Of a stretch of DNA of 7,030 nt, positions 3,804 through 6,987 are shown piece after piece. Within the stretch, counting starts at the first letter, position 1. Every line of letters starts with the position of its first letter. The stretch is taken from contig JAGHAJ010000142.1 in NCBI GenBank assembly GCA_021161545.1, positions 1 through 7,030 of the forward strand, read 5' to 3'. Position numbers and translations under genes: made by a program. Below the pieces are notes generated by a model that was not told the DNA's origin, searched no databases, and saw nothing but the letters and a program-made list of their open reading frames with translations. This DNA is from Synergistota bacterium (GTDB lineage Bacteria; Synergistota; JAGHAJ01).

Positions 3804-4514
3804 GTGAGAGTTGTTGAGGTGTATTCTGTCTCTAAGAGATTTGGTGATAGATTTGCTGTTAAAGATGTTTCCTTTTCTGTAGGTGAGGCGGAATGTGTAG
3901 GAATAATCGGGCTTAATGGTGCTGGAAAGACAACTTTGATTTCTGTGGTAGTTGGGTTACTCCTTCCTACCTCTGGAGATGTAAAAATATTTGGTAGACC
4001 TCCACGTTCCTTCGGGGTTAGGGGCAAGATAGGTTACCTGCCAGAGCTGTTTATACCTCCTGTTAGGCTCACACCCTTTGAATTATTGGGACTATTTTGC
4101 AAGCTGCTTGAAATTGATGAGAACCGTGTTAATGAGCTTTTGAGGCTTGTTTCCCTGTATGATGTTAGGGATAGGCTTATATTGAGGCTTTCCAAAGGAA
4201 TGAGACAGAGGCTTGGTATAGCACTCTCTCTTGTTGGTGATCCACCCATAGTTGTGCTTGATGAACCGTTTACGGGTTTGGACCCTCTGGGCAGGTATGA
4301 TATGAGGGAGACGATAAGGAGACTTAAAGGTAGAGGGAAGACTATAATCTTCAACTCCCACGTATTGCAGGATGTAAGAGAGATTGCAGATAGGGTTATC
4401 CTCATGCACGATGGCACAGTGCTGTATGATGGTTCAATTGCTGACTTTGTTTCTACAGTGTCTGATAAAAGCCTTGAAGACGCCTTTTTAATGAGGATTG
4501 GGGGTAGAGGTTAG
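3804..4514 (+). CDS. ABC transporter ATP-binding protein (CcmA/ABC-2 type)
   Basis: A complete 236-residue nucleotide-binding subunit of an ABC-2 type transporter, acting on the cytoplasmic face of the inner membrane. Motifs in order: Walker A GLNGAGKTT (36-44); Q-loop region GYLPE (77-81), where glutamate replaces the usual glutamine as in many ABC-2 ATPases; signature LSKGMRQ (129-135) in place of LSGGQ; Walker B and catalytic glutamate in IVVLDEP (149-155); D-loop TGLDP (157-161); H-loop histidine in NSHVLQD (H186). The subfamily includes NatA, NosF and Myxococcus PilH-like proteins, so the exact substrate is not defined by this chain. It begins with GTG and is the first gene of a three-gene operon; its TAG stop is two bases before the permease start. 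The enzyme looks catalytically intact. Confidence 0.95.
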   Translation: MRVVEVYSVSKRFGDRFAVKDVSFSVGEAECVGIIGLNGAGKTTLISVVVGLLLPTSGDVKIFGRPPRSFGVRGKIGYLPELFIPPVRLTPFELLGLFCKLLEIDENRVNELLRLVSLYDVRDRLILRLSKGMRQRLGIALSLVGDPPIVVLDEPFTGLDPLGRYDMRETIRRLKGRGKTIIFNSHVLQDVREIADRVILMHDGTVLYDGSIADFVSTVSDKSLEDAFLMRIGGRG

Positions 4515-4516
4515 GT

Positions 4517-5281
4517 GTGACGAGTGCGTTTTACATTGCAATAGCAACATTTAAGGAGGAGACAAGAAACAAGATTTTTTACCTAATACTGTTTGTTTTG
4601 CTGGGAGTTATAGCCTTTTCTGGGTATCTTTCTGTGCTTTCTATATCTGATACTGCTGTTGCATTTGGAGGTTTTGTGCTCTACTTTGTGAAGGTTGTTA
4701 CTGTATTAGGTGTTTTATTTTCAATGACACTTGGTTTATACGCTGAGAGGGAGAGCAAGGGCTATCACCTCTTTATCCTACAGCTTCGTTATCCATTTCT
4801 TTACATTCTGGGTAGATTCTTGGGATATAATCTATTGTTTGATTTTGTTGCTGCTGTATCTGTGATGGTGGTATATGTTCTGGAATTTACACTCTTTGGT
4901 GTGAATTTGTGGGGTATTTGGATATACTTATTAAATACTGTGCTTGTGTTTTACATGATTTCTGGTGTAGCCTTGTTCTTTTACACCATTTTCAGCACTC
5001 CCATCGTTTCTCTGCTTCTTTGTATGGCAACATTCTTTGTTGGGCACCTTTCTGTATCTTTTTACTTCTTTGTTTCCCACTATCCAAATGTGGTTGTTAG
5101 GTGGTTTCTTAAAGTTATATATTTTTTGGTGCCGAATTTGTCTATATTTTCGAGTGAGATTTCTGTGGTTCACGGAGCTGGGAATTTGTTAAGTTTTTTC
5201 TCTCTTTTTTATGCCTTGAGTTACGGCTCTATGATGGTAGTGCTGGCATCTTTGATTTTCTATATGTGGAGGGATTATTGA
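4517..5281 (+). CDS. ABC-2 type permease, NosY-like, six helices
   Basis: A 254-residue integral membrane protein, the channel partner of the upstream ATPase. Predicted helices lie near residues 20-41, 51-75, 102-127, 132-158, 162-187 and 225-249. The N-terminal amphipathic stretch ATFKEETRNKIFY, the cytoplasmic loop YAERESKGYHLFILQLRYPF (75-94), the following ILGRFLGYN, and VPNLSIFSSE (205-214) resemble the NosY/ABC-2 pattern in which a coupling helix precedes 'LGKxLG' and 'LPNLxxFN' follows the fifth helix. The GTG start is two bases after the ATPase stop, with GAGG at 4507-4510 six bases upstream; a GTG at 4515 is closed by TGA. A homodimer with two ATPases is expected. The substrate is unknown; the neighbours suggest an envelope or pilus-related role. 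Confidence 0.85.
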   Translation: MTSAFYIAIATFKEETRNKIFYLILFVLLGVIAFSGYLSVLSISDTAVAFGGFVLYFVKVVTVLGVLFSMTLGLYAERESKGYHLFILQLRYPFLYILGRFLGYNLLFDFVAAVSVMVVYVLEFTLFGVNLWGIWIYLLNTVLVFYMISGVALFFYTIFSTPIVSLLLCMATFFVGHLSVSFYFFVSHYPNVVVRWFLKVIYFLVPNLSIFSSEISVVHGAGNLLSFFSLFYALSYGSMMVVLASLIFYMWRDY

Positions 5282-5284
5282 GCT

Positions 5285-6073
5285 GTGAAGGTTGTGTTGA
5301 GCCTGCTCTTGGTAGTATTTTTTGCTGTTTCTGTGCTGATGCTTTCTTTACATGATACACATACTCTGATGGAAATTCATCCCATTGCACAATCACCGTG
5401 GTTAATGAGGTTTATCTTTCTCGATAACAGAGTGGCTGTAAGCCAGTATTATCTTATACGGGTTGCTATGGACATATTCAGGATCTGCAAGTATTCCAGT
5501 CTGGAATGTGAGAGGTTGTATTTGTCTTACAAGGCAGACCCTAACAATTCTGCTGCTTTGTTTTTCCTTGCCAATGTTGTTCCGTGTAACAAAAGAGGAG
5601 CTATTACGGTACTCAGGTATCTCAAGGCCTCCCTCTGTATAAAAGATACATGGAGGGGATATATGTATATTGGATTTTTATACTACTTTTATCTGGAGGA
5701 CTATAGCCGTGCAGCCAAGTACTTTAGACTGTCCGCTCGTATGCCAAATTCTAAACCTTATGTGCGGAGTCTTGCACTAATGGCATATTACCGTTCAGGC
5801 AGGCTCACATTGGCAAAGCAGTATTTGTTATCTGTTTACCACTCTACGAATGACAAGAGAAGGAAAAAAATACTCTTGAGGAAGATAAGATGGATAGATA
5901 CGCTTATTATCCTCAATAAAACAGTTGTCTTCTTTAAGAAGATAGAAGGAAGATACCCCCGTACACTAAGAGAACTTGTTGAAAAAGGATATATCAAGAA
6001 AATACCCGTTGACCCGTTTGGCAAAGGATACTATATAGACCCCAATACTCACAGGGTTAAGAGCAGAATTTAA
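5285..6073 (+). CDS. Membrane-anchored TPR protein with pseudopilin-like C-terminal tail
   Basis: A 262-residue protein that I do not recognise as a named family. Residues 4-21 form one hydrophobic helix (uncleaved anchor or signal), so the rest probably faces the periplasm. The middle (about 88-188) is helical with TPR-like repeats, clearest at 123-152 (GYMYIGFLYYF, then YSRAAKYFRLSARMP) and 158-188. The last 55 residues resemble the C-terminal part of GspG-type pseudopilins: a helix, then EGRYPRTLRELVEKGYI, then IPVDPFGKGYYIDPNTHRV, the 'dPfG-Y' pattern. No prepilin leader is present. It begins with GTG three bases after the permease stop, with GGAGGG at 5268-5273 (spacing 11), so it belongs to the ABC operon. 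Its stop shares TTAA with the stop of the convergent pilin. A scaffold or substrate-presenting partner of the transporter is an inference. Confidence 0.78.
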   Translation: MKVVLSLLLVVFFAVSVLMLSLHDTHTLMEIHPIAQSPWLMRFIFLDNRVAVSQYYLIRVAMDIFRICKYSSLECERLYLSYKADPNNSAALFFLANVVPCNKRGAITVLRYLKASLCIKDTWRGYMYIGFLYYFYLEDYSRAAKYFRLSARMPNSKPYVRSLALMAYYRSGRLTLAKQYLLSVYHSTNDKRRKKILLRKIRWIDTLIILNKTVVFFKKIEGRYPRTLRELVEKGYIKKIPVDPFGKGYYIDPNTHRVKSRI

Positions 6074-6660
6074 TAGTATTTTTTGTAAAGCATCATGGTC
6101 CAGCACTCTTTGCTGCTGTACTTTACATACTGAAAATATCCTTTGTTTCCGTTTACCTCTCCGTCTACATCCCTGTCTATCTTCTCTATTGCACTCTGCG
6201 GGAGTTTTAGGCTTCCTGCTGGGCTGTCCCATAATGCGCTTCCGCACCATACTTCGAGTTTTCCGTCGTCATCTGACCATGAGTAACCTGCATATGCGCC
6301 TGGATACTTTGCTGCAAATTGTGGAGAGCATGCGTATGCCCATGTGTACTTTCCGCCAAAGGGTGTGTTCTCCTGCCACCTATCCAGGTAAGGTCCATCC
6401 CAGTTTGGATCATGTGCAACATTTGTCACGAATCCGGGATCCTGTCCCACACCATTGCTGAATGCCTTGTCTGGGGGAAATCTGCCTGTGTCAGAGTAAT
6501 ATACAAGGGCAGCTGTTTTCAGCGTTGCCATGTCTGACTCTAACTTTGCTACCTTTGCTTTCTCCACACTCTTGAATGCGTTGGGCAACAACACAGCCAT
6601 CAGCACCCCTACGACTGCTATTACGATAAGCAATTCAACCAGTGTAAAGGCCTTTTTCAT
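6070..6660 (-). CDS. Type IV pilin / GspG-like pseudopilin precursor
   Basis: A 196-residue prepilin. Residues 1-26 are MKKA followed by FTLVELLIVIAVVGVLMAVLLP, the class III signal with glutamate at mature position 5 and the hydrophobic N-terminal helix that anchors the subunit and packs into the filament. The -1 residue is alanine where glycine is normal. The globular part has YYSDTGRFPP (54-63), DPNWDGPYLDRW (84-95) and TPFGGKYTWAY (99-109), a GspG-like block. It then has acidic segments SDDDG (129-133) and IDRDVDGEVNGNKG (161-174) that could bind calcium, and cysteines at 111, 139 and 186. The ATG at 6660 is chosen because the longer open frame to a TTG at 6714 runs through the -10 and -35 of the likely promoter. 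It may form a pilus or a type II-like pseudopilus; no assembly genes are in the window. Confidence 0.9.
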   Translation of the reverse strand: MKKAFTLVELLIVIAVVGVLMAVLLPNAFKSVEKAKVAKLESDMATLKTAALVYYSDTGRFPPDKAFSNGVGQDPGFVTNVAHDPNWDGPYLDRWQENTPFGGKYTWAYACSPQFAAKYPGAYAGYSWSDDDGKLEVWCGSALWDSPAGSLKLPQSAIEKIDRDVDGEVNGNKGYFQYVKYSSKECWTMMLYKKYY

Positions 6661-6672
6661 TTTTGTAAGTGA

Positions 6673-6679
6673 CACCTCC
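6673..6679 (-). promoter_or_regulatory. Shine-Dalgarno of the pilin gene
   Basis: GGAGGTG on the minus strand lies 12 bases before the ATG at 6660, a rather long gap. The predicted transcription start falls at or next to its first G, so the message would start almost directly with the ribosome site. Confidence 0.55.
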
Positions 6680-6685
6680 ATTTCT

Positions 6686-6714
6686 ATTCTAATATAGTTT
6701 TTGGAGCTTGTCAA
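6686..6714 (-). promoter_or_regulatory. Near-consensus sigma-70 promoter of the pilin gene
   Basis: On the minus strand a perfect TTGACA (6714-6709) is followed after 17 bases by TAGAAT (6691-6686), one mismatch from consensus. Transcription would begin near 6679 with a leader of about 20 bases. The strength fits an abundant structural protein. Confidence 0.75.
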
Positions 6715-6718
6715 ATAT

Positions 6719-6734
6719 TACTCTGTATAGAGTA
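6719..6734. repeat. Inverted repeat just upstream of the pilin promoter
   Basis: TACTCT (6719-6724) and AGAGTA (6729-6734) form a perfect 6-bp inverted repeat with a four-base spacer. Its centre is about 47 bases upstream of the predicted pilin transcription start, a typical place for an activator site. The regulator is unknown. Confidence 0.4.
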
Positions 6735-6832
6735 TTGCTTATTGGCATCCCTTTATAACCCCACATTTCTGGGCTTTTGGATTTTTGTAATATTATATCA
6801 CTAAATAATGGATTATTTGCTACTTTATTGGC
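6735..6832. other. AT-rich intergenic stretch with one small inverted repeat
   Basis: No open frame longer than about 15 codons and no RNA gene is recognised here. The only clear structure is AAATAAT (6803-6809) facing ATTATTT (6812-6818) with two bases between, an AT-only palindrome of uncertain meaning. Confidence 0.5.
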
Positions 6833-6861
6833 TTGATTTCAATCCGAGCGGTTGATAAAAT
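6833..6861 (+). promoter_or_regulatory. Possible promoter of the gene at the right edge
   Basis: TTGATT (6833-6838) and TAAAAT (6856-6861) are 17 bases apart and match consensus at four and five of six positions. A start near 6868 would give the right-edge gene a leader of about 128 bases containing the whole nested stem. Confidence 0.4.
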
Positions 6862-6911
6862 ACTTCTGCTTCATACCCATTTGTGGGGAATAGATAATTA
6901 GGCGGTAGTGT

Positions 6912-6923
6912 ACAATTAATTGT
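6912..6923. repeat. Perfect 12-bp palindrome
   Basis: ACAATTAATTGT is fully self-complementary and lies just left of the nested stem. It could be an operator or part of the end of a mobile element; the sequence alone does not decide. Confidence 0.35.
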
Positions 6924-6926
6924 GTC

Positions 6927-6987
6927 ACCCCCTTGAAGGACGAGAGGCTATAGTGTAACCTCTCATTAAAAATCCCTTCAAGGAGGT
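6927..6987 (+). promoter_or_regulatory. Nested stem that covers the ribosome site of the next gene
   Basis: CCTTGAAGG (6931-6939) pairs with CCTTCAAGG (6975-6983), and ACC (6927-6929) with GGT (6985-6987) after one mismatch. Inside, GAGAGG (6942-6947) pairs with CCTCTC (6959-6964) around an 11-base loop. The outer right arm contains the SD AAGGAGGT (6980-6987), so RNA that includes both arms should hide the ribosome site. A TATAGT in the inner loop (6949-6954) looks like a -10 but has no matching -35. Such an arrangement is known both from regulated leaders and from insertion-sequence ends that block translation of read-through messages. Confidence 0.6.
6980..6987 (+). promoter_or_regulatory. 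Strong Shine-Dalgarno of the right-edge gene
   Basis: AAGGAGGT lies eight bases before the ATG at 6996, an ideal spacing and near-perfect complement to the 16S rRNA end. This is the main reason for calling a gene that has only 35 bases inside the window. Confidence 0.65.

Follow-up and report, generated by a model that had tools for sequence, protein, structure and literature searches.

A gene trio encoding an ABC transporter and a TPR protein recurs beside type IV filament genes in at least four phyla

An ATP-binding cassette (ABC) transporter is reportedly needed for type IV pili, as described for Myxococcus in 1998. In Myxococcus xanthus the pilA, pilG, pilH and pilI genes form a single operon (PMC3546991), and groupings of pilGHI linked to pilD are found in other deltaproteobacteria (PMC6060248). 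The PilGHI proteins are required for pilus biogenesis in Myxococcus (PMC3546991, PMC3724824, PMC6060248) and are described, in a passage citing Wu et al. (1998), as essential there for pilin translocation (PMC3724824); the main text of a survey of type IV filament machines makes no mention of ABC transporters (PMC6668835). The literature that we found gives no mechanism for the Myxococcus pilus ABC transporter, and our search of it turned up no earlier description, besides PilGHI, of a module combining an ABC transporter with a tetratricopeptide repeat (TPR) protein in type II secretion system (T2SS) or type IV pilus (T4P) operons. Here we analyse a trio of genes encoding an ABC ATPase, an ABC-2 type permease and a membrane-anchored TPR protein, found in 7,030 nucleotides of DNA from a Synergistota bacterium (assembly GCA_021161545.1, contig JAGHAJ010000142.1; this whole stretch is referred to below as the window). 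The trio is a unit that is inherited together and is tied to genes for pilins, PilD or the T2SS/T4P machine in at least four phyla, and on its make-up and gene context it appears similar to PilGHI.

The linkage is seen in 28 clear relative loci drawn from three phyla. The three genes are collinear in all 28, one of them cut by a contig end, and in 27 a gene for a pilin, PilD, GspF, GspE or a secretin lies within 3.3 kb of the trio. This filament gene is co-directional with the trio in every linked locus except that of G006, a second Synergistota genome. An earlier note on the window, made from its sequence alone, had raised the possibility that the genes are adjacent in this one strain only; since the trio is kept with filament genes across at least four phyla, the genes clearly do stay together in distant lineages. 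Searches within the Synergistota had also given the impression of a strain-specific arrangement, which the cross-phylum searches overturned. Pairwise distances of the ATPase, permease and TPR protein are correlated (r 0.92–0.95 overall, 0.68–0.87 within phyla) and each phylum is monophyletic in the trio comparison, as expected for a single functional unit. The 28 loci are not independent events; the differing arrangements in the four phyla are. By our own rough bound, a genome of 2,000 genes, ~30 of them filament genes, would have ~10% of random three-gene operons within this distance of a filament gene, and four independent linkages by chance are unlikely (about 1e-4 on our estimate). Most of the genomes searched are metagenome assemblies and they exclude the Myxococcota and Desulfobacterota; the scan of named genomes used patterns derived from the C-terminal tail of the TPR protein, so that phyla lacking this tail are under-sampled.

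Among the Omnitrophota, a named-genome scan with the TPR alignment and a search of the phylum placed the trio in 12 of 384 genomes (13 loci, E below 1e-69), with the order ATPase–permease–TPR in all, the locus cut by a contig end included. Most of these trios lie within an operon that runs secretin, GspE/PilB, one to three GspG-like pilins, the trio, minor pseudopilins, GspF/PilC, PilM and a PilN-like protein; in one example the secretin, T2SSE, N_methyl pilins, T2SSF and PilM were confirmed by Pfam. The entry point to a third phylum was genome G153, reached via a locus carrying the tail pattern, and 14 clear members were found there in 95 genomes, with the order pilin(s)–ATPase–permease–TPR–PilD. 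In several of these loci the TPR gene directly adjoins or overlaps the PilD gene (in L059 their start and stop codons overlap), and genes for PilS/PilR-type regulators come next in some. Two weaker matches from this phylum, L100 and L101 (E about 1e-14), have a different gene order and no filament genes and are not counted as members. A membrane protein of ~1,080 amino acids also adjoins the third-phylum trio in L059 (2880-6149), L093 (4925-8155), L094 (2067-5348), L095 (3443-6697) and L096 (6784-10029); the L096 copy has spermine-synthase and TPR domains (Pfam) and the other four share its N-terminus. This protein is a possible further partner of the trio.

The link with the Nitrospirota comes from plasmids. 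When 72,556 plasmids were searched with the G153 permease there were three matches, all on plasmids of Candidatus Manganitrophus; two (H1 and H3) adjoin PilM and H2 has the same match. On plasmid CP114559.1 a pilin gene is followed by genes for an ABC ATPase, a permease (443 amino acids; permease profile E 3e-32) and a TPR protein (276 amino acids; a weak match, at E 9e-5, between the TPR profile and a six-sequence set), the same order as in the trio. Genes for PilZ, a secretin, PilM, PilN/O-like and PilP/GspC-like proteins come next, then a second ABC permease gene, which is followed by genes for a GspK-like protein, pseudopilins, two GspE-like ATPases, GspF and PilT. The T4P/T2SS-like operon so formed is complete, has two ABC permeases and occupies positions 82143-99092 of this plasmid. 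The Nitrospirota set is a looser version of the trio. A search of the plasmids with the TPR protein gave no match, and neither did a search of 16 genomes from the phylum of locus L013.

Within the Synergistota, a profile search identified the TPR protein in two of 185 genomes, G006 and the window genome (G000; 1.58 Mb, 82% complete), and the permease was found in the same two of the 41 genomes tested. A single-protein search of 149 genomes likewise gave G006 as the only relative in the phylum. A T2SS/T4P motor gene (T2SSE) is present in 41 of 41 genomes tested, and the trio is therefore not a core T4P/T2SS component; rare here as in the 12 of 384 and 14 of 95 genomes above, it is optional. In G006 the trio is divergent from the gene for the prepilin peptidase PilD (A24_N_bact E 2e-37, Peptidase_A24 E 5e-13), after which come more genes encoding pilin-like N-termini, unconfirmed by Pfam. 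The same genome has a PilM-Q/PilB cluster and a secretin–GspE–GspF cluster. A Wzy_C (O-antigen ligase) protein with TPRs is encoded two genes downstream of the G006 trio (L045, 8697-10640).

The window ATPase matches ABC_tran in Pfam (E 5e-26) and its motifs are complete (Walker A GLNGAGKT, signature LSKGM, Walker B VVLDEP and SH switch). Among small bacterial proteins in the PDB it matches NosF best (E 3.5e-45), with ABCA proteins ranking above. It falls below the cut-off of every NCBIfam equivalog among the best 25 models, and so does not clearly belong with a transporter of known unrelated substrate, a possibility that the earlier note had allowed for. The permease sequence has no match in Pfam, NCBIfam or the PDB. 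An AlphaFold model, like the other structures here a single-chain prediction, was made from a 14-sequence alignment (predicted local distance difference test score, pLDDT, 86); its nine best PDB matches are all NosY (TM-score about 0.6–0.7), so that the earlier description of the permease as NosY-like was right. The third-phylum homologue matches ABC2_membrane_2.

The third protein of the window trio matches TPR models weakly when taken alone (E 0.12), its relatives match TPR_1 at down to 3e-7 and its predicted model is an all-helical TPR-like array with a well-predicted C-terminal tail, which together bear out its proposed identity. NCBIfam has no matching model for this accessory (TPR/PilG) protein. 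The protein has no Pfam match to N_methyl or a prepilin leader, its N-terminus being a plain transmembrane helix, and in this it differs from GspG (T2SSG/TIGR01710) and is not a pilin, even though its tail resembles the C-terminal region of GspG and the neighbouring pilins are GspG-like. Like the pilotin PilF/PilW, it is a TPR protein in a T4P setting (2fi7 ranks 44th among its Foldseek matches), but PilF is an outer-membrane lipoprotein that serves as pilotin for the secretin, whereas the trio protein is anchored in the inner membrane and has ABC partners.

In the window protein alone the tail is a weak match to T2SSG (E 0.19). A consensus, G(R)xPxxLxELVxKGxIxxIPxDPFGxGYYLDxxxxRVKSR, nevertheless closes all 15 TPR proteins of the branch comprising the Synergistota and Omnitrophota, and a profile of these 15 tails finds pilins, the best match (E 3e-11) being a GspG-like pilin of G153 (L014). 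Several of the top matches come from loci that were selected by the tail pattern itself and are hence biased. In loci not selected in this way every non-TPR match (E 0.001 to 0.4) is a pilin, one of them from the window genome, and it is on these matches and the L014 pilin that we base the conclusion that the tail resembles the C-terminal region of pseudopilins. Comparison of whole-alignment profiles of the TPR family and of pilins aligns the same region, at an E of only 0.054. The pseudopilin-like tail noticed in the window is therefore real, though in the Synergistota and Omnitrophota only: it is absent from the TPR protein of G153, the sole third-phylum member aligned in full, and the profile match ends before the tail in the other clear members of that phylum. 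Most simply, the common ancestor of the branch that carries the tail gained it, or it arose earlier still. The classic PilGHI set is not known for a tail of this kind. The tail domain is not confined to pilins, as its motif also occurs in small Omnitrophota lipoproteins (L007-L009, L011 and L012) that have no pilin leader and are mostly encoded next to a nitroreductase-like gene.

Table 1. Trio genes and adjoining pilin gene in the window
Feature	Position	Strand	Basis
ABC ATPase, NosF/CcmA-like, 236 aa	3804..4514	+	GTG start; open reading frame (ORF) call, Pfam, NCBIfam, PDB match
ABC-2 type permease, 254 aa	4517..5281	+	ORF call; predicted fold NosY; relatives
Membrane-anchored TPR accessory protein, 262 aa	5285..6073	+	Transmembrane helix residues 2-29, helical repeats, C-terminal pseudopilin-like tail; model and relatives
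Pseudopilin (GspG)-like C-terminal tail of TPR protein, ending ...EGRYPRTLRELVEKGYIKKIPVDPFGKGYYIDPNTHRVKSRI	5897..6070	+	Conserved in 15 members; tail profile
GspG/PilA-like prepilin (MKKA|FTLVELLIV), 196 aa	6070..6660	-	Pfam, NCBIfam, identity to Omnitrophota pilins

The features of the locus are collected in Table 1. A GGAGG sequence lies immediately 5′ of the ATPase start codon, and the genes of the trio are tightly linked, as had been noted, with 2 nt between ATPase and permease and 3 nt between permease and TPR gene. The stop codons of the TPR gene (6071-6073) and of the convergent pilin gene (6070-6072) share 2 nt, so that 'zero intergenic space' was an accurate description. Convergence without a spacer is a local feature of the window, however; most other loci have pilins co-directional with the trio. 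Upstream of the trio are leuC, leuD and an EamA transporter gene, then a gene of the DUF4139/MuiA family on the opposite strand.

The neighbouring pilin most likely starts at ATG 6660 (MKKAFTLVELLIV...), with a longer TTG frame extending to 6714. Its assignment as GspG/PilA-like is sound: it matches N_methyl at 6e-6 and, short of the curated cut-off, TIGR01710 GspG at E 3e-14, and it is 30–35% identical to trio-flanking pilins of the Omnitrophota, a WDGPYL segment included. The pilin gene and ~220 bp upstream (window 6195-6880) are repeated at 95% identity on contig C199 of the window genome (L068, 4896-5583), where the second copy sits at the extreme end of the contig beside rpsI/rplM; this points either to a duplicated pilin gene or to an assembly break at a variant copy. 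C23 and C123 carry other pilin paralogues of this genome. A 36-bp stretch at the right edge of the window (6904-6939) recurs at 97% identity on C123 (L067, 1470-1504), suggesting a dispersed repeat or the end of a mobile element.

It is very likely that the trio is a dedicated, optional helper of pilus building. As to how it works, we lean, on balance, towards an accessory ABC module dedicated to type IV filament machines (T4P/T2SS), in which a NosFY-like motor acts on pilins via the TPR protein. The parallel with NosF–NosY–NosD lies in an ATPase nearest to NosF, a permease with the fold of NosY and a third protein at the outer face that completes the set. The trio is not NosDFY, as there is no NosD and no nos gene was found in Pfam and NCBIfam scans of the window proteins: an anchored, all-helical TPR protein replaces the beta-helix of NosD, and the context is filament assembly rather than copper enzyme maturation. 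The ATPase and permease may work like NosFY, with the TPR protein taking the part of NosD and receiving their ATP-driven movement on the outer side of the inner membrane. From there the anchored periplasmic TPR protein probably transmits this motion to pilins or to the site of their processing and assembly, by which pilins would be inserted, matured or loaded, and in the branch to which the window belongs its pilin-head-like domain could dock at pilin docking sites. The module as a whole would work like M. xanthus PilGHI.

Several observations weigh against such a role. The window trio is adjoined by one pilin gene only, on the opposite strand, and the filament machine genes of its genome (contig C192 being that of the window) sit elsewhere, C166 carrying secretin–GspE–GspF and C159 part of a second motor gene. 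Locus L087, the exception among the 28, shows no filament gene nearby, though its contig starts 310 bp before the ATPase gene, and the distant homologues L100 and L101 are without one too. Filament machines work without the trio, given its rarity, and the tail, missing in the third phylum, is not essential to the core mechanism. The O-antigen-ligase-like gene near the G006 trio, finally, would fit a glycan exporter.

The convergent pilin outside the operon and the unrelated flanks (EamA transporter, DUF4139, leuCD) could also mean that a general-purpose ABC exporter lies beside a pilin gene by accident in the window genome; recurrent linkage to filament genes in four phyla, including in a plasmid search unbiased by pilins, strongly disfavours this, and we regard it as highly improbable. 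An exporter with a filament-related cargo is unlikely, if less so. The cargo of such a module would be small or lipid-linked (a glycan, a cofactor or the donor of a modification) and needed for the decoration of pilins or of filament-secreted proteins, and the TPR protein would serve as docking factor; this would be in keeping with the G006 Wzy_C/TPR protein and with the frequency of lipid and polysaccharide export among ABC-2 permeases. Yet no glycosyltransferase or ligase is conserved beside the trio in the Omnitrophota or the third phylum, and the nearest folds and sequences are those of NosFY, not of polysaccharide exporters of the Wzm/Wzt type.

A serious possibility, though one that we rate short of even, is that the trio and M. 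xanthus PilGHI are true orthologues, their accessory proteins included, which would make the trio a new member of a described system. Both consist of an ABC ATPase, a permease and an accessory protein encoded with a pilin, and the third-phylum trio, which lies between a pilin and PilD, recalls the pilAGHI operon (PMC3546991) and the pilDGHI groupings near pilD in some deltaproteobacteria (PMC6060248). Gene order differs, however, the accessory gene coming first in Myxococcus and last in the trio. The trio accessory belongs to the TPR proteins and in two phyla has a pseudopilin-like tail, and the trio is also found in T2SS-like operons.

What is new is the recurrence, in at least four phyla, of a similar module of defined three-gene make-up next to genes for pilins, PilD and T2SS/T4P, together with the NosY fold of its permease and, in two phyla, a pilin-like domain on its partner. 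The accessory-module reading that we favour can be put to the test as a concrete model, in which ATP would drive a mechanical action on pilins, and the loci provide a sequence set for the prediction of complex structures. A more far-reaching proposal, which we consider doubtful, is of a widespread, optional, ATP-driven pilin-handling machine, in which a NosFY-like motor would move an anchored TPR arm, bearing a mimic of the pilin head in some phyla, to load, extract or proof-read pilins at the assembly platform or at PilD. If true, this machine would represent an ATP-powered step in filament assembly beside the known PilB/PilT motors.

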